DNA of 52,778 nt from Sulfurimonas sp. (GCA_016744115.1 JADGEZ010000010.1:1-52778), one strand, 5' to 3'; counted from the first letter of the stretch, positions 18,915-29,850 are shown. The notes: a model not told the origin generated them from the letters alone. A program made the numbers and translations.

Positions 18915-20009
18915 ATCTTAAAAATAATAGTTTCAGTATTCCTTGTATTAGCAAGTATTACTTCCCTTGGTTTTATTTATTATAAAAATGAGATTAAAGA
19001 AGAAAAGCTTGACAATATAATGGATCAAATTATTATGACCTTAGATTCACAATTACATTTTCATAAGATGGATGATCTTAAAATGGCTCTTTTTTTGTCT
19101 CAGAACAAAGGTATTATAGAAGCCTTAGAAAATGATGATGAAGATTTAGCTTACGAAATACTCTCAGATATTACCAAAGCAATTAGTAAAAATACAAATA
19201 TACTTATGAAATCACAAATAATTACAAAAGAACATAATATTTTTGCAAGAAGTTGGGATGATATATATTCTGGAATGCCTATTGGTGATTTTAGAGTAGA
19301 TTTTGATTATTTTAAAACAAATAAAACACCTCGTACCTCAATAGAGGTTGGAAGACTTTTAGGGATAAAAGCAACCGTTCCTATATACAAAGATGATGTT
19401 TTTCTCGGTTTTGTTGAGGTAATATCATTTTTTAAATCAATCACAACTTTTTTTAGCTCTATGGGGGTTGATTTATATGTCTTACTTGATGTTAAACATG
19501 CAGATAGTGCTGTACTAATGATGCAAAATTTAACAATTGATGAATATATACTTTCAAATAGGAACTACAATTATAGTCATATTCAAATGTTAAATGAGAT
19601 TGATTTTAAAGAGTTAAAACTAAGTAAAACTCTTTATGTTGATAATAAATATATATTTTATAAAACAATGTATGATGGAAACCATAAAGCAATAGGTGGG
19701 TTTGTATTTGTTTTACCAGAAAGATATTTAGAGTATTTTAGAAATCCTGAAGACAATATATCTTTTTTAATTAATGTAACGAGAAGTGGTCTGTATGATG
19801 TAATAAAGGAAGAAAAATATGAAAATAATGTATATGAAAAATATTCTGCTAGCTCTATGGTATATCTTCAAGATGTCATTAGTAAAGAAGACAGGCAAGT
19901 GTTTTTAGATGAAGCTTATGAAAAGTTTGATAAATTTACGAAAGATGAACTAATACAGATGATGCTCAATAGAAATATTGTAAAAAAGATAGAGGGAAAA
20001 ATTAAATGA
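18915..20009 (+). CDS. Membrane-anchored periplasmic Cache-like sensor protein
   Basis: The product is one N-terminal membrane helix followed by a large extracytoplasmic domain resembling double-Cache sensor folds (VGRLLGIKATVPIY, LGFVEVISFF, AIGGFVFVLPE) and a short C-terminal helical tail with no kinase domain. The first ATG (19020) would omit the membrane helix. Codons from 18915 encode LKIIVSVFLVLASITSLGF in frame with no ATG, GTG or TTG, and AAGGAG ends 5 nt before ATC at 18915. I therefore place the start at this ATC. The gene overlaps the response regulator by 4 nt. It probably supplies ligand sensing to the downstream kinase. Confidence 0.65.
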   Translation: MLKIIVSVFLVLASITSLGFIYYKNEIKEEKLDNIMDQIIMTLDSQLHFHKMDDLKMALFLSQNKGIIEALENDDEDLAYEILSDITKAISKNTNILMKSQIITKEHNIFARSWDDIYSGMPIGDFRVDFDYFKTNKTPRTSIEVGRLLGIKATVPIYKDDVFLGFVEVISFFKSITTFFSSMGVDLYVLLDVKHADSAVLMMQNLTIDEYILSNRNYNYSHIQMLNEIDFKELKLSKTLYVDNKYIFYKTMYDGNHKAIGGFVFVLPERYLEYFRNPEDNISFLINVTRSGLYDVIKEEKYENNVYEKYSASSMVYLQDVISKEDRQVFLDEAYEKFDKFTKDELIQMMLNRNIVKKIEGKIK

Positions 20010-20659
20010 AAATATTATTATTAGAAGATGAATATTCATTACGCATAAGTATAGAAGAGTTTTTAAGTGATTTAGGTTATGAAGTAGATGGTTTTATGGA
20101 TGGTGAGGATGCTTATGATGCCATCTATAATAAATCATATGATATTTTACTTTTAGATGTAAATGTGCCCTCTTTAAATGGTTTTGAACTTTTGAAAAAG
20201 ATCAAACAAGATGGTAACAATGTTCCAACAATTTTTTTAACATCTATGACAGATATAGATGATTTAAAAGAGGGTTATAAAAGAGGATGTTGTGATTATA
20301 TACGAAAACCATTTGATTTAGAAGAATTAGAATTACGAATAGAACAAGCATTAGCAAATATACTTGATGAGAATAGTTCTGTAATACACATTAATTATGA
20401 GGTAACTTATGATATGAAAAAAAGAAAGTTACTTTTTGGAGATAAAGAGATAATACTTAGAAAAACAGAACTAGATATTTTAGAATCACTTATAAAAAAT
20501 AAAAATGCAGTAGTCTCAATGCAAATGCTTCAAGATGAGGTTTGGGGTGAGTATGTAGAACCTGCAACAATAAGAGTGCAACTTAACAATTTACGCAAAA
20601 GATTACCAGATAAAATAATCCAAAATAGAAGAGGTTTGGGGTACATAATTGAAAGGTAA
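20006..20659 (+). CDS. OmpR/PhoB-family response regulator
   Basis: This 217-aa protein has a receiver domain with acidic pocket EDE (7-9), phospho-acceptor Asp51 (LLLDVNVP), Thr in FLTSM and Lys in RKPFDL. A winged-helix DNA-binding domain follows (RKTELDILESL, VSMQMLQDEVW, RVQLNNLRKRL, RRGLGYII). It is coupled to the Cache-like sensor and kinase genes by overlaps of 4 and 11 nt. The direct repeat in front of soxX, about 1.2 kb downstream, is a plausible target, so it may control soxXYZAB. Confidence 0.93.
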   Translation: MKILLLEDEYSLRISIEEFLSDLGYEVDGFMDGEDAYDAIYNKSYDILLLDVNVPSLNGFELLKKIKQDGNNVPTIFLTSMTDIDDLKEGYKRGCCDYIRKPFDLEELELRIEQALANILDENSSVIHINYEVTYDMKKRKLLFGDKEIILRKTELDILESLIKNKNAVVSMQMLQDEVWGEYVEPATIRVQLNNLRKRLPDKIIQNRRGLGYIIER

Positions 20660-21812
20660 GCAGTACTCAGCAAAATACGCACTGATATATACATCACTAA
20701 TATCAGTAGTTTTTTTGATACCTTTGTTTTTCTATTTTATATATATGAAAAATATACATTCTATAAAAAATGAGTTATTACTAAAAGAGAAATCTTTTTT
20801 AGTAATAAAAGCGATGCAAGAGTACAATCAAAATGAAGAGTACTTTGAATATCCAAGATTTAACACATTTCAATCAGGATTATATAATGAAAAGTTTGAG
20901 CCAATTTTTTCTTTAATACAATATAAAATAAAATATTTTAAAGATGCTTATCATTTAGATAACAATAACGCATACTTAATTGTTAAGCTTCCCAAAAGAA
21001 GGTATTTTGATGCTAAGTATCTTATAGTAAAAAATCAAATCTCTTTTTCTATAGTGTATGAGAAACTTATGTTAATACTTTTAAGTATGATAATCTTAGT
21101 TTTTATACTCAGTATATATTTTTTAAAAAGTTTTGCAAAACCCTATAAGAAGCTCAATGAAACCTTAGATAACTTTATAAAAGATTCTATGCACGAGATA
21201 AATACACCCTTATCAATTATAAGCGTAAATATAGATCTTTATAATAGAAAAAATTCCGCCAACAAATATATGAATAGAATGAAAGCAGCAACAAAGGTTT
21301 TATCAAATATATACAATGATATGGATTATCTCATAAAGAACGATAGATTAAAGCATGAAAAAGAGGAAATTGATATATCAGAATTTTTAAAAGACAGAAT
21401 TGACTATTTTAGTGAGGTTGGAAAGATGAAAGAACTTAAAATCAATTCTCAAATACAAAAATCCTTGAAGATAGATATGAACCCTAAACAACTTCAACGA
21501 GTAATAGACAATACTATATCTAATGCAATAAAATACTCTTATGAAAATTCTAGTATAGATATAGAGCTTTATATGAAAGAGGGGCAATGTTATCTAAGTT
21601 TTAGAGATTATGGTGTGGGTATTGAAAATGTTAAAAAAATATTCAGTAGATATTATCGTGAAGATACTAGAAAAGGTGGATTTGGGATAGGTCTTAATAT
21701 TGTGAAATCTATTATTAATGAACTTGGTATTGATTTGAAAATAAACTCTACTCTGAAAAAAGGAAGTACATTTTTATACATATTTCCAGTAATGCCTCAA
21801 AAAGATATATAA
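20649..21812 (+). CDS. Sensor histidine kinase
   Basis: The 387-aa kinase has two membrane helices (about 10-33 and 137-160) flanking a roughly 100-residue periplasmic region. A HisKA domain with the phospho-acceptor in SMHEINTPLS follows, then an HATPase domain with N box NTISNAIKYS, G1 DYGVGI, F box FSRYYRED and G2 GGFGIGLNIV. It starts at TTG 20649, overlapping the regulator by 11 nt. It should phosphorylate the upstream regulator; the signal may come through the separate Cache-like protein. Confidence 0.92.
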   Translation: MKGKQYSAKYALIYTSLISVVFLIPLFFYFIYMKNIHSIKNELLLKEKSFLVIKAMQEYNQNEEYFEYPRFNTFQSGLYNEKFEPIFSLIQYKIKYFKDAYHLDNNNAYLIVKLPKRRYFDAKYLIVKNQISFSIVYEKLMLILLSMIILVFILSIYFLKSFAKPYKKLNETLDNFIKDSMHEINTPLSIISVNIDLYNRKNSANKYMNRMKAATKVLSNIYNDMDYLIKNDRLKHEKEEIDISEFLKDRIDYFSEVGKMKELKINSQIQKSLKIDMNPKQLQRVIDNTISNAIKYSYENSSIDIELYMKEGQCYLSFRDYGVGIENVKKIFSRYYREDTRKGGFGIGLNIVKSIINELGIDLKINSTLKKGSTFLYIFPVMPQKDI

Positions 21813-21870: not shown

Positions 21871-21924
21871 CTTAAGAGGAAAAACAATGAAGAAAACCTT
21901 AAGAGGAAAGATAATGAAAAAAAC
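21871..21924 (+). repeat. Tandem 27-bp duplication of the soxX ribosome site and start codon
   Basis: Copies at 21871-21897 and 21898-21924 each contain CTTAAGAGGAAA, an ATG and the codons for Met-Lys-Lys-Thr, with three or four mismatches. The unit is a multiple of three, so the two starts (21887 and 21914) are in the same frame and each has its own ribosome site. Confidence 0.85.
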
Positions 21925-22468
21925 TTTGCTTATGTCATTAGTTCTTGCTGGATCCCTTATCGCCGCTGATTATAGCAGTGTAATACAACATCCCGATGCA
22001 AGTAAGTTGATTCAAAAAGATTTATTGCCACCTGCAAAGCATTTTAAAATGCCAGCGAATTGTGTGACAACAAATTCAGAATCTATAGCTAGAGGTGCTT
22101 TTTTATTCCATAATTTAAATGGAAAAAAAGCAAAAAAGAACCCACCTAAAGGTTTGTCTCGTAAACAAATGAAACCTGGTAAAACATATCTTCCAGGAGA
22201 TAAAATACCATCAAAGCAATATGGTAACTGTATAGCTTGTCATGACATTGAGGGTTCAGTTGGTCCGGGTAATGTAGGTCCATCTTTAGTTGGATATAAG
22301 AAAATGTTTGTAGATAGTGGTGTGAGAGATGCTCAGTTTGTGTATCAACAAATTGCAGATGCTCGTGCCCTAAATCCAGAATCACTAATGACCATTAATC
22401 TAGCAAATGGTTTATTCTCATCAAGTGAAGTATGTGACCTTACATCATATATCTTAGCACCAAAATAA
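21887..22468 (+). CDS. soxX: Sulfur-oxidation c-type cytochrome SoxX
   Basis: SoxX is the small haem subunit of SoxAX, which attaches thiosulfate to SoxYZ in the periplasm. The protein has one haem site, CIACH, in YGNCIACHDIEGSVGPGN, with a Met in SLMTINLA as the likely sixth ligand, and a signal peptide (KKTLLMSLVLAGSLIAA). Two in-frame starts exist; the second (21914, 184 aa) gives the more typical signal peptide, while the first adds nine residues. It is the first gene of soxXYZAB. Confidence 0.93.
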   Translation: MKKTLRGKIMKKTLLMSLVLAGSLIAADYSSVIQHPDASKLIQKDLLPPAKHFKMPANCVTTNSESIARGAFLFHNLNGKKAKKNPPKGLSRKQMKPGKTYLPGDKIPSKQYGNCIACHDIEGSVGPGNVGPSLVGYKKMFVDSGVRDAQFVYQQIADARALNPESLMTINLANGLFSSSEVCDLTSYILAPK

Positions 22469-22478
22469 AAGGAATATT

Positions 22479-22940
22479 ATGAAAAGAAGAGATTTTTTTA
22501 AACACTTAGGTTCTGCAGCCGTAGTTGCCGCAACAGTAACACCAACGATGAGTTTTGCAGCAGCAAAGCAGGCAAATACGATTAGTTATAAAAATGCTTT
22601 AGATGCAATAACTGGTGGCAAATCAGCTAAAACATCAAAAAGTGTACATTTAAAAGTTCCAGAAATTGCTGAAAATGGTGCTGTTGTGCCAGTAACTATT
22701 ACAGTTGATTCTCCAATGACTGATGCTGATTATGTGAAAGCAATTCATATTTTAGTAAGTAAAAATGGTAATGCTCGTTGTTTAGACGCTCATTTAACTC
22801 CAGCAAATGGTAAAGCAATGCTTGCAACTCGTGTTAAACTTAATGGAACACAAGATGTATCAGCAGTAATTGCATTGAGTAATGGTGAATTTTTAATAGC
22901 AACTCAGGGTGTTAAAGTAACTATCGGTGGTTGTGGTTGA
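22479..22940 (+). CDS. soxY: Thiosulfate oxidation carrier protein SoxY
   Basis: SoxY carries sulfur intermediates on a C-terminal Cys. The 153-aa protein has a twin-arginine signal (KRRDFFKHLG), an immunoglobulin-like body and the family end motif GGCG, all intact. It lies 10 nt after soxX and 44 nt before its partner soxZ. Export by Tat as a folded SoxYZ dimer is expected, because SoxZ has no signal peptide. Confidence 0.96.
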   Translation: MKRRDFFKHLGSAAVVAATVTPTMSFAAAKQANTISYKNALDAITGGKSAKTSKSVHLKVPEIAENGAVVPVTITVDSPMTDADYVKAIHILVSKNGNARCLDAHLTPANGKAMLATRVKLNGTQDVSAVIALSNGEFLIATQGVKVTIGGCG

Positions 22941-22984
22941 TAATCAACTCAAAATAAATTAAAAAATAAATTAAGGAAATAAAA

Positions 22985-23320
22985 ATGGCAAAAAGAAAAT
23001 CACTGATTAAGATCAAACCAAAAAAATATAAAGATGGTGACATTGTAAAAGTAAGTTTTATGGTTATGCATCCAATGGAAACTGGAACACGCAAAGATAA
23101 AAAAACAAAACAAGTGTTGCCAGCTAAGTATATAAATAATGTGAAGTTCGCGTATAACGGAAAAGTTATAACAACTTTAAATGTATGGGAAACATTGTCA
23201 ACTAACCCAGTATTTACAACGTATATGAAAATAAATGGTAAGGGTAATCTTACTGTAAACTATACAGACAATACTGGCGAAGCTAATGAAAAAAGTAAAA
23301 AGATTAAACCAAAAGGATAA
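22985..23320 (+). CDS. soxZ: Thiosulfate oxidation carrier complex protein SoxZ
   Basis: SoxZ is the 111-aa partner of SoxY. It has the family pattern KPKKYKDGDIVKVSFMVMHPMETG and WETLSTNPVF, forms an all-beta sandwich, and lacks a signal peptide, as is normal. AAGGAAA precedes the ATG. The stop is directly followed by TTGATG of soxA. Confidence 0.96.
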   Translation: MAKRKSLIKIKPKKYKDGDIVKVSFMVMHPMETGTRKDKKTKQVLPAKYINNVKFAYNGKVITTLNVWETLSTNPVFTTYMKINGKGNLTVNYTDNTGEANEKSKKIKPKG

Positions 23321-23323
23321 TTG

Positions 23324-24097
23324 ATGAAACCAGGAATTAAAATAGTATTGTCACTCGCTCTTCTTTCTTCATTGTCTTTTGGAGGAGAATCATTTGCAAT
23401 GAGTGATGCTGACCGTGCAATGTACACAGAGATGTTAGAAAACAACCCAGCAGATATTTTGGTTGAGAGTGGAAATGAGTTACTTGAAGAGTTAGTAGGT
23501 GGTGATGCTGCATTAGCTGCATTTTATAAGGTGACTGAGGATGATTTAGCTAAGTATATAGCAGGTTTCCCTCGTTATATAGAAGATTTTAAGCAAGTTG
23601 TTACAATTAGTCAATCTTTACAAGGACTTATGCATAAACATGGACATAAACCATTCAAACTAAAAAGTGCAAAAATGTTTGAACTAAGTTCTTATGTTAA
23701 ATCAATTGCAAATGGTGAAAATATTAATATTGACATCAATGCAAATAAACATATAAAAAAATCTTATGCTATGGGTGAAAATAATTATATGACACCTCGT
23801 GGTGGAAGAGGTTTAGCTTGTAATTCTTGTCATTCAGATGCAGTTATCGGAACTGTATTAAGAACACAGCCATTACCAGATTTGAGTTCTAAAGGTGTGG
23901 CAGTTGCTGCTACTTGGCCTGCATATAGAATGACTAAGTCATCTCTTAGAACTTTACCTAGACGCTTTCAGGGTTGTATGAAAAATGCACTCTTAAAAGT
24001 TATACCTTTAGGTTCAGAAGAGATGGTTGCACTTGAAGTTTATTTAACGCATCAAGCAAAGGGCTCGGAAATAGCAATTCCAGGTCTAAAAAGATAA
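23324..24097 (+). CDS. soxA: Sulfur-oxidation c-type cytochrome SoxA
   Basis: SoxA is the catalytic subunit of SoxAX. This 257-aa protein has a signal peptide (ends SLSFG), a single haem motif CNSCH in GGRGLACNSCHSD, and the active-site Cys in RRFQGCMKNAL, where a Cys-persulfide haem ligand forms. It is the mono-haem type; some bacteria have a second, inactive haem site. I chose ATG 23324, with the ribosome site AAAGGATA inside the end of soxZ. SoxB starts 10 nt later. Confidence 0.95.
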   Translation: MKPGIKIVLSLALLSSLSFGGESFAMSDADRAMYTEMLENNPADILVESGNELLEELVGGDAALAAFYKVTEDDLAKYIAGFPRYIEDFKQVVTISQSLQGLMHKHGHKPFKLKSAKMFELSSYVKSIANGENINIDINANKHIKKSYAMGENNYMTPRGGRGLACNSCHSDAVIGTVLRTQPLPDLSSKGVAVAATWPAYRMTKSSLRTLPRRFQGCMKNALLKVIPLGSEEMVALEVYLTHQAKGSEIAIPGLKR

Positions 24098-24106
24098 GGA
24101 ATAAAC

Positions 24107-25867
24107 ATGGATATTTCTAGAAGAGACTTTATGCATATTGCAGCTGTTCTTGGATTGAGTGCTGCAACAGCAGGGAACGCAAGTCCAAAAACATCATCAC
24201 AAATATCGCTTAAAGATATTTATGCTTTTAATGCTAAAGGTAATTTTACATTGTTACATATGTGTGATATTCATGCACATATAAAGCCACTATATTGGAG
24301 AGAGCCATCTACTTTATTGTCTGCTCCAAACTTAACTGGAACACCTGGTTTTTTATGTGGTGAAGCTTTTGCAAAGCATTATGGACTAGAGCCTAGTTCA
24401 CTTGATGCTTATTTCGATACACATGTTGATTTTGAGACATTAGCAAAGAAGTTTGGTAAAATGGGTGGAATTGCCCATATGAAAACATATCTTGAGCATG
24501 TAAGAAAAGAAAGAGGAAAGGAGAATGTTCTTTTCCTTGATTCTGGAGATACATGGCAAGGTACAGGTGTAGCATTAAAAACTCGTGGTGAGGCTATCGT
24601 TAAGGCACAAAATTACCTCGGCGTTGATGTTATGACTGGACATTGGGAATTTACTTACGGTAAACAAAGAGTTATGGAACTGCTTAAGATGTTAGATGCA
24701 AAATTTGTGGCTCAAAATGTTGTTGGTAATGACCCTTTTGCTGATGAGTACGAAGAGCTTATTTTTGAGCCATATACTATTGAAGAAAGAGGTGGAGCGA
24801 AGATTGGTATCATCGGTCAAGCTTTTCCATTTACTTCTACTGCTAACCCTAAAGAGTTTACAGAGGGTTGGAGTTTTGGTATCAGACCTGATACACTTCA
24901 AGACTATGTAAATGAGTTAAGAAAAGAGCATAAGGTTGATTGTGTTGTTGTTATTTCTCATGATGGATTTAGTGTTGATCAAGAAGTAGCTCGTATGGTT
25001 CATGGTATTGACTTTATATTAAGTGGACATACTCATGACCCATCACCAAAACCTATTACGGTTAATGGTACAGTTATCGTTATCGCTGGTAGTCATGGTA
25101 AATATGTAGGTCGGTTAGATATTGATGCTAAAGACGGAAAAGTACTTGATTATGAGTATAAATTAGTTCCTATAGCTTCAAATATGATTCCAGCAGACCC
25201 AGAGGGTATTGCGCTTGTTAATAAGCTTTATGCACCATTTGACAAGGAATTTAGTGAAGTTTTAGGTACGACTAAAAATACTTTATACAAAAGAGATACA
25301 TTCTTCTCAACATTTGATGAGTTGATTAATAATGCGATTTTAGATGAGATGAAGTGTGATATGGCCTTTACTCCTGGGTATAGATGGGGTACAACCGTTT
25401 TAGCAGGTGAAGATATTTTAATGGAAAATGTATATGAGATGTGTGGTATCACATATCCAAATGTATATACTTTTGATTTAAAAGGTCAGCAGATTGCTAA
25501 CTTACTTGAAGATATTGCAGATAATGTATTTAATGCAAACCCTCTTTATCAGCAAGGTGGAGATATGAGCCGTCTTGGTGGAGTTACTTATAGTATCCAA
25601 GTGGCTGGAAAAGCTGGAAAAAGAATAAGTAAACTTATGATTGGTGGTAAGGCAATAGATTTAAAGAAAACTTATGTGGTTTCATCATGGGGTGGTAATT
25701 TACAAAATGCTGGTACTAATCTTCAAGAAAAGAAGATTAGAGCCGTGTATGATGTAACTCGTGATTATATTAAAAGACAAAAAGTAGTTGATGTTAGTAA
25801 TGCTGGAAATGTTACTATAGTTGATTACGATTGTGGATGTCCTGTTAAAGGTGCAACAAGCTGTTAA
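24107..25867 (+). CDS. soxB: Thiosulfohydrolase SoxB
   Basis: SoxB hydrolyses sulfonate off the SoxY-bound intermediate to release sulfate. The 586-aa protein has a Tat signal (SRRDFMHIAAVLG) and the di-manganese metallophosphoesterase motifs HMCDIHAH, DSGDTWQG, GHWEFTYG, VISHDGFS and SGHTHDP, then a 5'-nucleotidase-like C-terminal domain. The size is typical. It ends the soxXYZAB unit and is followed by a hairpin. Confidence 0.97.
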   Translation: MDISRRDFMHIAAVLGLSAATAGNASPKTSSQISLKDIYAFNAKGNFTLLHMCDIHAHIKPLYWREPSTLLSAPNLTGTPGFLCGEAFAKHYGLEPSSLDAYFDTHVDFETLAKKFGKMGGIAHMKTYLEHVRKERGKENVLFLDSGDTWQGTGVALKTRGEAIVKAQNYLGVDVMTGHWEFTYGKQRVMELLKMLDAKFVAQNVVGNDPFADEYEELIFEPYTIEERGGAKIGIIGQAFPFTSTANPKEFTEGWSFGIRPDTLQDYVNELRKEHKVDCVVVISHDGFSVDQEVARMVHGIDFILSGHTHDPSPKPITVNGTVIVIAGSHGKYVGRLDIDAKDGKVLDYEYKLVPIASNMIPADPEGIALVNKLYAPFDKEFSEVLGTTKNTLYKRDTFFSTFDELINNAILDEMKCDMAFTPGYRWGTTVLAGEDILMENVYEMCGITYPNVYTFDLKGQQIANLLEDIADNVFNANPLYQQGGDMSRLGGVTYSIQVAGKAGKRISKLMIGGKAIDLKKTYVVSSWGGNLQNAGTNLQEKKIRAVYDVTRDYIKRQKVVDVSNAGNVTIVDYDCGCPVKGATSC

Positions 25868-25939: not shown

Positions 25940-27103
25940 ATGAAAAAAAATTCTATGATTAAGTTAGCAGTATCGGCTGCAACTCTTATGCTAATGACTA
26001 CATCAGCAAATGCTGGTTACACAATGAAGAAAAAAGTCGGAGGTGTTGATACTAAGCTTACAATGTTTGGTTTTTCACAAATAACTGCACAAAATGGCAC
26101 AGGTAAAGCTGGAGCAGATACTGATCAAAATGTAAAATTTGGTGCTGATAGAATTCGTCTTGGTTGGAAATATGTAGCTGGAAAAGTTCGTGGTAAAGTT
26201 TTCTTAGATTTTAATCAAGCTACAGATAAAAAAGAAGATGTTGGAATGCGTAGAGTTATTAAAGATGCATTTATCTCTTATGTTGCAGACCCTGCTTTTG
26301 TTGTTAAAGCTGGTGTTATTAAAACTCCAGTAGGAATGGGATTTACTATTCCTGGTTGGAATCTTGATGTAATTAAGCGTGGTTTTGACAAACACCTTGC
26401 ATTTGAGCGTGGAAATGGTCTTATGATTTCTGGTCGTGCAATTGGAGGAAGTGGTAAGGTAAATGGTTTTGAGATGGGACATGAGCGTCCAATGACTGGT
26501 TTTGGTTATGATGTTATGATTGCTAATCAAACAACTCGTGGAGGGTCTATTGTAGAAACTTCAGAATCAGGAGCAAAAAAGAATGCTTATATGGGTAGAT
26601 TACATTATGATCAAGGTGAAGCACTTCACTTAGAAGTTGCTTATGGTACGAACCCTCATGCTGGTGGTACAGTTGCAAGTGAAGATTTTAATGCTTTAAA
26701 TATTGGTCTTGATTCTCACTTTGGTAATGGTATGAATGTTAAAGTAGAATATTATGATGTTTCTGGCATCAAAGGTAAGAAACATGATATGCAAACTTTA
26801 GCATTAACTTATACTGCTTACGTAACTGATTCTTTTGAAGTAGCGATTAAGTCTATTAATGGTTCTGAAGATAAAGATGGTAAAGAAGCTGATATAGGAA
26901 ATCACTTTGTTGGCTTTAACTGGTACCCAAGTCAAGTAAACACTGGTAAAAGTAGAAGTGCTAAAAGAAAAAATAATCAGCATGTAGTTAAAGTGAATTA
27001 TGTTGCAACGACTGGTGATAAAGATGGTGCTAATGCATGGCAAGGTAATAAAAAAGCATATACTGATGATTTAATATTAGCAATGTACCAATTTAAATTC
27101 TAA
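25940..27103 (+). CDS. Outer-membrane porin (OprP/O-like)
   Basis: This 387-aa protein has a signal peptide (ends TTSANAG), alternating beta strands throughout, aromatic girdles and a C-terminal Phe (LAMYQFKF), as expected of a trimeric porin. Motifs such as DRIRLGWKY, VRGKVFLDF and IKDAFISYV match phosphate-selective-porin-like proteins of Campylobacterota. Its place directly after soxB and before the SoxH-like gene suggests it passes thiosulfate or another sulfur anion, but anion choice cannot be read from sequence. Confidence 0.8.
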   Translation: MKKNSMIKLAVSAATLMLMTTSANAGYTMKKKVGGVDTKLTMFGFSQITAQNGTGKAGADTDQNVKFGADRIRLGWKYVAGKVRGKVFLDFNQATDKKEDVGMRRVIKDAFISYVADPAFVVKAGVIKTPVGMGFTIPGWNLDVIKRGFDKHLAFERGNGLMISGRAIGGSGKVNGFEMGHERPMTGFGYDVMIANQTTRGGSIVETSESGAKKNAYMGRLHYDQGEALHLEVAYGTNPHAGGTVASEDFNALNIGLDSHFGNGMNVKVEYYDVSGIKGKKHDMQTLALTYTAYVTDSFEVAIKSINGSEDKDGKEADIGNHFVGFNWYPSQVNTGKSRSAKRKNNQHVVKVNYVATTGDKDGANAWQGNKKAYTDDLILAMYQFKF

Positions 27104-27131
27104 AAAATAAATTTAGATTAAAGGTTATGCT

Positions 27132-28037
27132 TTGAAGTTACTTCTTTTATTACTTGTGTGTATTGAGATTCTCCCCGCATTTGATTATGCACTTAAGCCA
27201 AAGAAAGTCAATGAGTTTACTCATTGCTTTTTTGGAGTATCCGAAGTGATGGACGAGCGTAACAATGGTAACATGTCAAACTCCTGTTTTGTTAATATGG
27301 GGACTAATTATATCGTGATAGATAGCGGTCCTACATACTTTTATGCACAACAAGCATATAAAAAAATGAAAAAGATTAAGAATCTACCTATATCTTATGT
27401 GATAAATACTCATAACCATGATGACCATTGGTTAGGAAATAGCTATTACTCTGAACTAGGTGTTAAGATTGTCGGTTCAAGTGCATTTTCTTTCGAGACA
27501 AAAGTAAAAATGACTAGAATGCAAAAAAGAATAAGTCCAGAAGCTTTTTTAAAAACTACTCAAGTATTCCCTTTTATTTTTGTAGAAAATGAAAAGCTTT
27601 TAGATTTTAATGGAAAAAAAGTCCATCTAATAAATGTAAATCAAAAAGCTCATACAAATAGTGATCTTTTAGTTTATGTCCCTAGTGATAAAATAATATT
27701 TGTAGGTGATTTGATTTTTAATGATAGGTTGCCATTTATAATAGATGGTGATTTATTAGCTTGGATTAAAACATTAGATAAAATTAAATCAATGGATCTT
27801 AATTATGTGATAGGTGGACATGGAAAAATTGTAGATAAAAGTTCAATTGATATGACATATAACTATTTAAGAACACTTAACAAAGAAGTTTCAGCTTTAC
27901 TTGAAGAGGGTAAAGATATAGGTGATGTTGTTGAGCTTGTAAGTATGAAAAAATACGAAAATGTAAATTTTTATGATACGATGCATAAACAAAATGTAGA
28001 GATAGCTTATAGAATATTGGAGTGGGCTGATGAATAA
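27132..28037 (+). CDS. SoxH-like metallo-beta-lactamase-fold hydrolase
   Basis: The 301-aa protein has a short signal peptide and the zinc motif THNHDDHW (HxHxDH), then His in QKAHTNSD, Asp in FVGDLIF and His in IGGHGKIV, a complete di-metal site. Similar proteins are called SoxH or quinoprotein-relay zinc hydrolases. SoxH is linked to sox clusters but its reaction is not established. It starts at TTG 27132, after AAGG. It overlaps the thioredoxin gene by 8 nt. Confidence 0.8.
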   Translation: MKLLLLLLVCIEILPAFDYALKPKKVNEFTHCFFGVSEVMDERNNGNMSNSCFVNMGTNYIVIDSGPTYFYAQQAYKKMKKIKNLPISYVINTHNHDDHWLGNSYYSELGVKIVGSSAFSFETKVKMTRMQKRISPEAFLKTTQVFPFIFVENEKLLDFNGKKVHLINVNQKAHTNSDLLVYVPSDKIIFVGDLIFNDRLPFIIDGDLLAWIKTLDKIKSMDLNYVIGGHGKIVDKSSIDMTYNYLRTLNKEVSALLEEGKDIGDVVELVSMKKYENVNFYDTMHKQNVEIAYRILEWADE

Positions 28038-28404
28038 AATATTTTTTTCAATAATATTGAGTAGTGTTTTATCATTTGGAGCTGATTGGACGAGTTATAC
28101 AGAAGCCTTTTCTCAGCAGACAAAAAATACTAAAATGATTATGATTAAAGTTATTAAAGATAATTGCCGATATTGTATTGAGATGCAAGAACAGGTATTT
28201 GATAATTTAGAGATGAAAAAATGGCTAGATAAGCGTTTTAATATTGTTAAATTAGAGTACCTAAAGGATGAACTTCCTTTAGGTTTAAAACCTATTGTTA
28301 CTCCAACTTTTTATTTTATAAATAAAAAGGAAAAACTCATAAAAGAGATAAAGGGAGCTTGGAATATTGAAGATTTTAAGCACCTTACAAGGAATATAAA
28401 ATGA
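28030..28404 (+). CDS. Periplasmic thioredoxin-fold protein (SoxW-like)
   Basis: This 124-aa protein has a signal peptide (ends LSFGA) and a redox motif CRYC in DNCRYCIEMQ. The cis-Pro region IVTPTFYF is also present. It should be a periplasmic thiol reductant of the SoxW/DsbD-partner kind, which keeps SoxY or SoxA cysteines reduced. It overlaps its neighbours by 8 and 4 nt, so it is co-translated with the SoxH-like and DsrE-like genes. Confidence 0.8.
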   Translation: MNKIFFSIILSSVLSFGADWTSYTEAFSQQTKNTKMIMIKVIKDNCRYCIEMQEQVFDNLEMKKWLDKRFNIVKLEYLKDELPLGLKPIVTPTFYFINKKEKLIKEIKGAWNIEDFKHLTRNIK

Positions 28405-28835
28405 TAAAAAAAGTACTTATTTTAGTTTCACTATGTTTTGTTTTATCCGCTGAAACTGAACTAGCAGAGCCAATACCATCTATGTTTGAACAGAGAAAAA
28501 TTCTCTTTTCTATAAGTAGTGCAGATGACAAAAAAATCCATGCTTTACTGAGTACAGCTAACAATGTCTTAAAGTTTTATTCTCCAGAAAATGTGCATAT
28601 GCGTATAGTTGCTTATGCTGATGGGATGAAAATGTTGTTAGAAAAAAACAAAGACATTGCCATAAGAGTAAAAGCCCTAAGTCTTATAAATGTTGAATTT
28701 GTAGCATGTGGTAATACAATGAGAACAAAAAAAATCAAAGAAGAAGAGTTGATAGAGGATGTTAAGATAGTAACAGCAGGCATAGCAGAATTAGTTGAAA
28801 GATCAGTTGAGGGATGGACAAATATAGTTCCATAG
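28401..28835 (+). CDS. Periplasmic DsrE-like protein 1
   Basis: This 144-aa protein has a signal peptide (ends VLSAE) and a DsrE/DsrF-type fold: KILFSISSADDKKIHALLSTANNVL, RIVAYADGMKMLL, then a conserved Cys in VEFVACGNTM. DsrE proteins carry sulfur on such a Cys. An exported version beside sox genes may bind or relay sulfane sulfur in the periplasm. A paralogue follows 16 nt later. Confidence 0.7.
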   Translation: MIKKVLILVSLCFVLSAETELAEPIPSMFEQRKILFSISSADDKKIHALLSTANNVLKFYSPENVHMRIVAYADGMKMLLEKNKDIAIRVKALSLINVEFVACGNTMRTKKIKEEELIEDVKIVTAGIAELVERSVEGWTNIVP

Positions 28836-28851
28836 TATAAGGAGTTTAATC

Positions 28852-29319
28852 ATGAAAAATTTATTATTAGTATTTTTGCTATTTACATCTTTGCTTAATG
28901 CACAAGAAAGTGTAAAAAAGGTTGTTTTTGACTTGACAACTGGAAGTATTGAAGTTTTTGAGAAAAAAGTTTTATCTGGAATATCATTTCATAAAATACA
29001 TTATGAAAATAATTTAGAAGAACTAAAAGTAGCTGTTATTGTACATGGCGATGCGTATAAATTTTTCATCAAAAATTTAAATATCTCTAGATATAAAAAT
29101 GATTTAAAGTTACTTAAGGAACAAAAAAGTTTATCAAAAAGACTTAAAAGTTTAGCTGATATATATGAGGTTGAATTTTTAATATGTGAATCAGGAGTGA
29201 ATAAACTTAAAATTAATAAAAATAATCTTTACAAATATACAAAACTAGTAGCAACTGCAACTGTAGGACTTATCGAAAAACAATCAGATGATTATGTATA
29301 TGTTCCTATTTTTAAATAA
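28852..29319 (+). CDS. Periplasmic DsrE-like protein 2
   Basis: This 155-aa protein has a signal peptide (ends SLLNAQ) and the same plan as the preceding gene: a beta-alpha core (KVVFDLTTGS, KVAVIVHGDAYKFF) and a single Cys in VEFLICESGV at the position of the first protein's CGNTM. It is clearly a diverged paralogue with a longer middle helix. The two could form a heteromeric complex like DsrEF, but periplasmic. The function is inferred from fold and context. Confidence 0.65.
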   Translation: MKNLLLVFLLFTSLLNAQESVKKVVFDLTTGSIEVFEKKVLSGISFHKIHYENNLEELKVAVIVHGDAYKFFIKNLNISRYKNDLKLLKEQKSLSKRLKSLADIYEVEFLICESGVNKLKINKNNLYKYTKLVATATVGLIEKQSDDYVYVPIFK

Positions 29320-29406
29320 TTTTGTAAATATTAAGAAAAATAATGACTAAAATTTAAGAAAATATCACTAAAATTCATCTATATTTTATAAAGGTTTTTT
29401 CTTTAA

Positions 29407-29850
29407 ATGTCCTATTCATGTCCTCTCAATTTCGTACAAGTTGATTCTAACGCTTCAAGATTAAGTTCTCTTATCGTTGCTACTTTAGTACTTACTTATT
29501 TATTTACATCACTAACATTTATTTTATATTTTTTAGTACTAGACTTTTCTTTAAAATTATTTATTAATAAAAAATATTCACTTATATCGTTTTTTGCACT
29601 ATATTTTCGAAAATCATTTAATATGAAAGAAATATTTACTGACGGTGGAGCAAAAAAACTAGCTGGAATTTTTGGTTTAGTCTTTGTTCTATTGTTACTT
29701 CTTACAGATTTATTAGCCTTACAATCTTTATCATTTTTAATAGCTGGAATATTTTTATCATGTTCGCTCTTAGATTTACTTTTTAACTATTGCTTAGGAT
29801 GTAAGATATATCATCTTATTAAAAAAATATATCCAAATTTTATGAGTTAA
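29407..29850 (+). CDS. DUF4395-like membrane protein
   Basis: The 147-aa integral membrane protein begins with a CP pair (YSCPLNFVQVD), has about four hydrophobic helices and ends with CLGCKIY. The CP start and the C-x2-C near the end are hallmarks of DUF4395 proteins, which often lie beside sulfur-transfer or thioredoxin genes. A role in thiol or sulfur handling at the membrane is possible. It is 87 nt from the DsrE pair, so it may have its own promoter. Confidence 0.65.
   Translation: MSYSCPLNFVQVDSNASRLSSLIVATLVLTYLFTSLTFILYFLVLDFSLKLFINKKYSLISFFALYFRKSFNMKEIFTDGGAKKLAGIFGLVFVLLLLLTDLLALQSLSFLIAGIFLSCSLLDLLFNYCLGCKIYHLIKKIYPNFMS

Follow-up and report, generated by a model that had tools for sequence, protein, structure and literature searches.

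Exported DsrE-family proteins encoded downstream of soxB and their co-occurrence with SoxB in Campylobacterota

In thiosulfate oxidation by the Sox system, SoxXA loads thiosulfate onto SoxY, SoxB then removes the sulfonate, and a sulfane sulfur remains on SoxY. What the genes directly downstream of soxB contribute to the handling of this sulfur is the question raised by a 52,778-nt stretch of Sulfurimonas sp. DNA (GCA_016744115.1 JADGEZ010000010.1:1-52778; the window), which forms contig 22 of the 2.05 Mb genome G000, whose closest named relatives, based on the loci matched by the DsrE1 protein described below, are Sulfurimonas. The window has a thiosulfate Sox operon, soxXYZAB (21887-25867, + strand), followed immediately by genes encoding a porin-like protein, a metallo-beta-lactamase-fold (MBL) hydrolase, a thioredoxin-fold protein (Trx) and two DsrE-family proteins, designated DsrE1 and DsrE2. 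DsrE sulfur carriers have been studied as cytoplasmic proteins, whereas both of these have predicted export signals. DsrE1 was found to accompany SoxB without exception in near-complete genomes of the Campylobacterota. The reading that we favour, while giving it slightly less than an even chance of being correct, is that these genes encode periplasmic proteins accessory to thiosulfate oxidation by Sox, among which DsrE1, together with DsrE2 where present, accepts the SoxY sulfane sulfur after SoxB has acted.

The association was established in 298 Campylobacterota genomes that are at least 90% complete, with DsrE1 counted at profile scores of at least 115 bits; weak matches (23-34 bits) in three genomes were left out of the count. 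SoxB is present above the curated cut-off in 53 of these genomes and in a truncated form in one more (G367, 532 bits), and DsrE1 is present in exactly these 54 genomes and in none of the other 244. In 48 of the 54, DsrE1 shares the strand of soxB and is encoded 0.5-6.2 kb downstream of it, and in five it is on a different contig. The Fisher value for the association, 1e-60, is not a true probability as the genomes share history, and more weight attaches to the exceptionless match, which spans about 20 genera. The sequence-only reading of the locus had set a survey of the region next to soxB across the phylum as its test, and co-occurrence with sox genes is what this survey revealed. Within the family to which the window belongs, represented by 151 genomes, SoxB orthologues (about 70% identity or more, fragments included) are present in 87, of which 82 also have DsrE1, compared with 2 of the 64 SoxB-negative genomes, all seven exceptions being metagenome-assembled genomes of 56-89% completeness. 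Where one contig holds both genes (72 genomes), DsrE1 is located 0.45-5.0 kb downstream of soxB. A SoxB homologue with 40% identity in G038, which was not counted, also has a DsrE1 homologue (31% identity) about 1.1 kb away.

When the genomes of the family are separated by SoxC content, DsrE1 is found in 52 of 54 with both SoxB and SoxC and 30 of 33 with SoxB only, whereas it is missing from all 41 that have SoxC alone and occurs in 2 of the 23 that lack both. DsrE1 therefore tracks SoxB, and its occurrence depends on neither the presence nor the absence of SoxC, a pattern that assigns it to the SoxB step. The genome of the window itself encodes SoxC (621 bits versus a cut-off of 420). The module is accordingly part of the thiosulfate side of Sox rather than a stand-in for SoxCD here, and replacement of SoxCD, the role tentatively suggested for it, has no general support either. 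In Campylobacterota, DsrE1 probably belongs to the regular make-up of the Sox pathway, as a component that has gone unstudied. An exported DsrE beside soxB, as first noticed in this locus, is real but not special to it, being general in SoxB-carrying Campylobacterota and present also in some Alphaproteobacteria (PMC11034169).

Proteins encoded in the window were assigned to families with Pfam and NCBIfam profiles at their curated cut-offs. DsrE1 and DsrE2 score 30.4 and 37.3 bits, respectively, against the PF02635 cut-off of 22.7 bits and so belong to the DsrE/DsrF family, and these two identities and that of Trx, as originally read, are all borne out (E values in Table 1). The cysteine predicted to carry sulfur is conserved in 45 of 46 DsrE1 sequences (Cys103) and in all 32 DsrE2 sequences (Cys112). 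The DsrE1 model (pLDDT 91) has the DsrE fold of MTH1491 (1l1s), ST0148 (2pd2), YchN (1jx7) and DsrEFH (2hy5), with query-normalised TM scores of 0.61-0.74 versus 1l1s, 2pd2, 1jx7 and 2hy5_A, and Cys103 aligns with the C-x-N of MTH1491 and ST0148. Export was predicted by a simple and crude N-terminal hydropathy test rather than SignalP. By this test, the N-termini of all five proteins from the porin-like protein to DsrE2, including the two DsrE proteins for which signal peptides had been claimed, are strongly hydrophobic (2.1-3.3), whereas the cytoplasmic controls from the window, with one exception, do not exceed 1.4. The signal is kept in 46 of 46 DsrE1 and 28 of 32 DsrE2 relatives; loss of the cysteine or signal peptide in homologues, which would have told against the original reading, is therefore not the pattern seen. 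DsrEFH and TusBCD share the DsrE fold and conserved cysteine with the module proteins but are cytoplasmic hetero-oligomers, of reverse Dsr sulfur oxidation (rDsr) and tRNA thiolation, with three different co-encoded subunits, whereas the module has one or two DsrE genes whose products have export signals and are tied to SoxB.

DsrE2 is encoded in 62 of the 87 SoxB-positive relatives, within the sox operon or elsewhere. Outside sox, its neighbours encode an ArsR-like regulator, an exported rhodanese, a DsrE-like protein and DsbD. Such sox-independent homes with the regulator and exported rhodanese are exemplified by L073:8339-11965, L080:7019-10314 and L085:6721-7729; some of these loci add a small DsrE-like gene and DsbD plus a thioredoxin, and from their gene content they look like a further periplasmic persulfide system.

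Across about 40 loci in relatives, the usual order is soxXYZAB-porin-MBL-Trx-DsrE1-DUF302(-DsrE2), and in other families the set is reduced to soxB-Trx-(small gene)-DsrE1. The DUF302 protein is exported and has about 305 aa (Pfam 2e-7) and two conserved cysteines (44/45). Its gene separates those of DsrE1 and DsrE2 in almost all relatives (for example, L038:6276-7190) and is absent from the window. The best candidate for a relocated copy in the same genome, on contig C74 (305 aa, hidden Markov model E value 6e-73), is diverged and has efflux and transporter genes as neighbours, so that it cannot be clearly equated with the missing orthologue. The DUF4395 gene, originally read as part of the module, is real and lies in the same stretch but is outside the conserved module; no homologue was found at the 40 relatives' loci and the family occurs in SoxB-negative relatives (e.g. 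G099, G107 and G111), so that membership is rejected; it is DUF302 that belongs to the usual set. DsbD and a further thioredoxin adjoin the module in some relatives, and G000 encodes DsbD elsewhere. In the single-contig genome G386, an exact tandem triplication (L195:5240-16889; period 3883 bp, 7767 bp identical under shift) contains a truncated MBL, two Trx, DsrE1 and DUF302, and may reflect either amplification of the module as one block or an artefact of assembly.

Relatives also have a second sox cluster, with the order soxC-soxD-soxY-soxZ-MBL-Trx-MOSC-DUF302-flavoprotein, of which the window's genome carries the soxH2-MOSC-DUF302-flavoprotein-Trx end; a DUF302-related gene adjoins soxH2 on contig C48. 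MBL, Trx and DUF302 therefore occur twice, each time with a SoxYZ pair, and their repetition beside soxCDY2Z2 argues that the set goes with the SoxYZ carriers. The MOSC-domain protein is encoded in the soxCDYZ cluster at L031:1317-1754 and L032:8844-9299, and similar-sized genes adjoin DsrE1 in Arcobacter-type sox loci (L192-L194).

The six ORFs from 25940 to 29850 have the positions originally read and run in one direction directly after soxB (Table 1). The short overlaps of MBL with Trx (8 bp) and Trx with DsrE1 (4 bp), and the 16-bp spacing of DsrE1 and DsrE2, suggest a single transcript, the end of which is not fixed, as a scan for terminators between DsrE2 and the DUF4395 gene found none. 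Beyond DUF4395, on the same strand, are a small unknown gene and coaX, named by reading of the ORF. Upstream of soxX, the sensor, response regulator (RR) and histidine kinase (HK) genes (19020-21812) likely encode the regulator of the sox operon; the order cache sensor-RR-HK-soxX is annotated in Sulfurovum mangrovi and is seen also in L076. The full sox module of S. mangrovi (L190:4785-8243) belongs to a record of 395 kb that is classed as a plasmid, and the frames of its soxB and porin gene read as broken.

Table 1. Genes of the sox operon, the downstream module and flanking regions (positions in the window)
Feature	Position	Strand	Basis or remark
Sensor protein	19020-20009	+	Upstream of soxX
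RR	20006-20659	+	Upstream of soxX
HK	20649-21812	+	Upstream of soxX
soxX	21887-22468	+	NCBIfam SoxX equivalog, over cut-off
soxY	22479-22940	+	Pfam SoxY 4.7e-35
soxZ	22985-23320	+	Position and homology
soxA	23321-24097	+	NCBIfam SoxA equivalog, over cut-off
soxB	24107-25867	+	NCBIfam SoxB equivalog, over cut-off
Porin-like outer-membrane protein, 387 aa	25940-27103	+	Signal peptide, C-terminal Phe, slot between soxB and MBL
Exported MBL hydrolase, SoxH/'soxH1' type, TTG start	27132-28037	+	Pfam Lactamase_B 6.6e-19
Exported Trx, C46-x-x-C49, SoxW-like role	28030-28404	+	Pfam Thioredoxin_2 1.8e-7
DsrE1, exported, Cys103 (F-x-A-C-x-N-T-M motif)	28401-28835	+	Pfam DsrE 4.8e-7
DsrE2, exported, conserved Cys112	28852-29319	+	Pfam DsrE 3.5e-9
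DUF4395 membrane protein, outside conserved module	29407-29850	+	Pfam 1.9e-21

The MBL, encoded in 76 of the 87 SoxB-positive genomes of the family, keeps all seven metal-ligand positions (H94, H96, D98, H99, H174, D193 and H230) in 42 of 42 sequences. Two near-invariant cysteines, C32 (41/42) and C52 (42/42), are present in the soxH2 group too and could form a disulfide or be a target of Trx. The closest structures to the MBL model (pLDDT 92) are a Burkholderia MBL protein, chlorothalonil dehalogenase and B1/B2 MBLs (8d2z and 6uxu are among the closest), and the top 50 structural matches include the alkylsulfatase SdsA1 and no persulfide dioxygenase (ETHE1/PDO), so that the fold search does not favour the latter function. 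The best NCBIfam models are SoxH_rel_PQQ_2 and _1 (TIGR04559 and TIGR04558), both with scores (192 and 170 bits) below their cut-offs (280 and 300 bits, respectively). The designation SoxH-like, given at first reading, therefore holds loosely but not at family cut-offs; judged from sequence and fold, the protein is a SoxH in the loose sense of an exported MBL-fold hydrolase with a full di-metal ligand set encoded in a sox cluster. The link to a PQQ quinoprotein relay implied by the model names was rejected given these scores, and no alcohol dehydrogenase or PQQ genes are present among the ORFs around the module. In Trx, both CxxC cysteines are conserved in 40 of 40 relatives, and an export signal is present. 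The porin-like protein has no Pfam, NCBIfam or PDB match that would place it in the OprD/porin family, although it was first labelled a porin. Homologues with 50-54% identity occupy the same slot in relatives; this type accounts for about a quarter of the approximately 40 loci, most of which have an OprD porin there. Together with the signal peptide and C-terminal Phe, the OprD occupancy of the slot suggests that this gene also encodes a porin.

The DsrE fold with one conserved cysteine fits a sulfur acceptor, and Trx fits a resetting partner. As DsrE1 follows SoxB regardless of the downstream steps, it most likely acts on the sulfane sulfur left on SoxY. DsrE1, with DsrE2 where present, would most likely accept this sulfur on the conserved cysteine and so free SoxYZ. 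The sulfur, kept as a DsrE persulfide, might then be oxidised by SoxCD on the second carrier, SoxY2Z2, or be released as polysulfide. Trx, reduced via DsbD, would reset the cysteines of both DsrE and SoxY, while blocked carrier forms would be cleaved by the SoxH-type hydrolase. The exported rhodanese, ArsR, DsrE and DsbD neighbours of sox-independent DsrE2 genes argue for a carrier function, as does the thiosulfate-dependent increase of dsrE, soxW and soxH1 in Sulfurovum indicum (PMC10045233). Several points weigh against this reading. The chemistry assigned to the module proteins is deduced from gene content; DsrE1 is 272 kb from soxB in the closed genome G239; DsrE1 occurs in SoxB genomes that lack SoxC and so cannot be solely a bridge to SoxCD; and MBL, DUF302 and DsrE2 are less constant than DsrE1 and so may not share its pathway.

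The conserved CxxC of Trx, the DsbD neighbours and the presence of the module with or without SoxC would also be consistent with a redox rescue, in which Trx and DsbD keep the SoxY cysteine reduced, as SoxV and SoxW do in other systems, and DsrE1 and SoxH only clear dead-end adducts, with no onward passage of sulfur. In Rhodovulum, a periplasmic SoxW is reduced by SoxV (work cited in PMC2147049). We consider redox rescue possible but doubtful, as it needs no DsrE with a conserved cysteine, yet DsrE1 is the most constant member, and Sulfuricurvum-type loci (L042, L046, L047 and L050) keep DsrE1 with no Trx detected in the operon. It is unlikely that the hydrolase and DsrE proteins instead broaden the substrate range by processing polythionates or SoxY-bound thiosulfonates, allowing tetrathionate, trithionate or S0 to enter the Sox cycle, since dsrE, soxW and soxH1 of Sulfurovum are expressed at higher levels on thiosulfate than on S0 (PMC10045233). 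An MBL fold nearest to hydrolases, with SdsA1 among its matches, is in keeping with such processing, as are the reaction of an archaeal DsrE3A with tetrathionate (PMC4175335) and the participation of DUF302 in trithionate use proposed elsewhere (PMC5037610). SoxH, otherwise of unknown function, has likewise been proposed to free sulfate from SoxY where SoxB is absent (PMC10045233, PMC11237559), including in Sulfurimonas CVO (PMC11237559). Very improbable, finally, is a sensing role in which the DsrE proteins signal periplasmic sulfane sulfur to the sensor kinase system; this system is conserved upstream of soxX, and DsrE2 is encoded just upstream of it in L076, but DsrE1 is at the opposite side of the operon, among enzymes, and is retained in Arcobacter-type loci in which the regulator is not seen beside soxX.

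Parts of the module have been published. In S. indicum ST-419, dsrE, soxW and soxH1 adjoin soxABXY1Z1 and are 2.2-3.8-fold up on thiosulfate, and soxH2 adjoins soxCDY2Z2 (PMC10045233). These are the same genes beside the same sox genes as in the window, but that study has one dsrE, called a thioredoxin, and no survey, whereas the window has two DsrE genes and no DUF302. In Sulfitobacter, DsrE between soxB and soxC, and DUF302 near soxF and soxH, are also sox neighbours, but in Alphaproteobacteria with one complete sox cluster, and their functions there are called unknown (PMC11034169). Most Sulfurimonas and Sulfurovum species have their Sox genes in two separate clusters (PMC10470523). A plasmid of Methylosinus trichosporium OB3b (L191) has soxY-soxZ-soxB-DsrE-DsrE-DUF302, with two DsrE genes right after soxB as in the window, but in another phylum, with about 32% identity, and neither MBL nor Trx is annotated there. 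In Indioceanicola, two DsrE genes lie about 5 kb from a soxB on the opposite strand, the second encoding a protein 43% identical to DsrE1. Paracoccus and Rhodovulum similarly have a periplasmic thioredoxin beside sox genes, but DsbD, encoded outside the operon, is present here rather than SoxV, and Trx is of the Thioredoxin_2/DsbH-like type. The strict DsrE1-SoxB rule was not found stated in the open-access literature searched, subscription papers lying outside that search.

At vents and redoxclines, Campylobacterota are among the foremost sulfur oxidisers, and we know of no explanation for how sulfane sulfur passes between two separate Sox clusters. As an exceptionless follower of SoxB in 298 near-complete genomes that is indifferent to SoxC, DsrE1 is a concrete candidate for joining these clusters, with one cysteine to mutate. 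It is conceivable, if rather unlikely, that DsrE1 is an overlooked obligatory Sox component, transferring sulfane sulfur from SoxY1Z1 to the SoxCD-SoxY2Z2 branch or, where SoxCD is missing, to polysulfide; if true, this transfer would explain how the split Sox system of the Campylobacterota is joined. A periplasmic DsrE tied to Sox would extend the role of the DsrE family.

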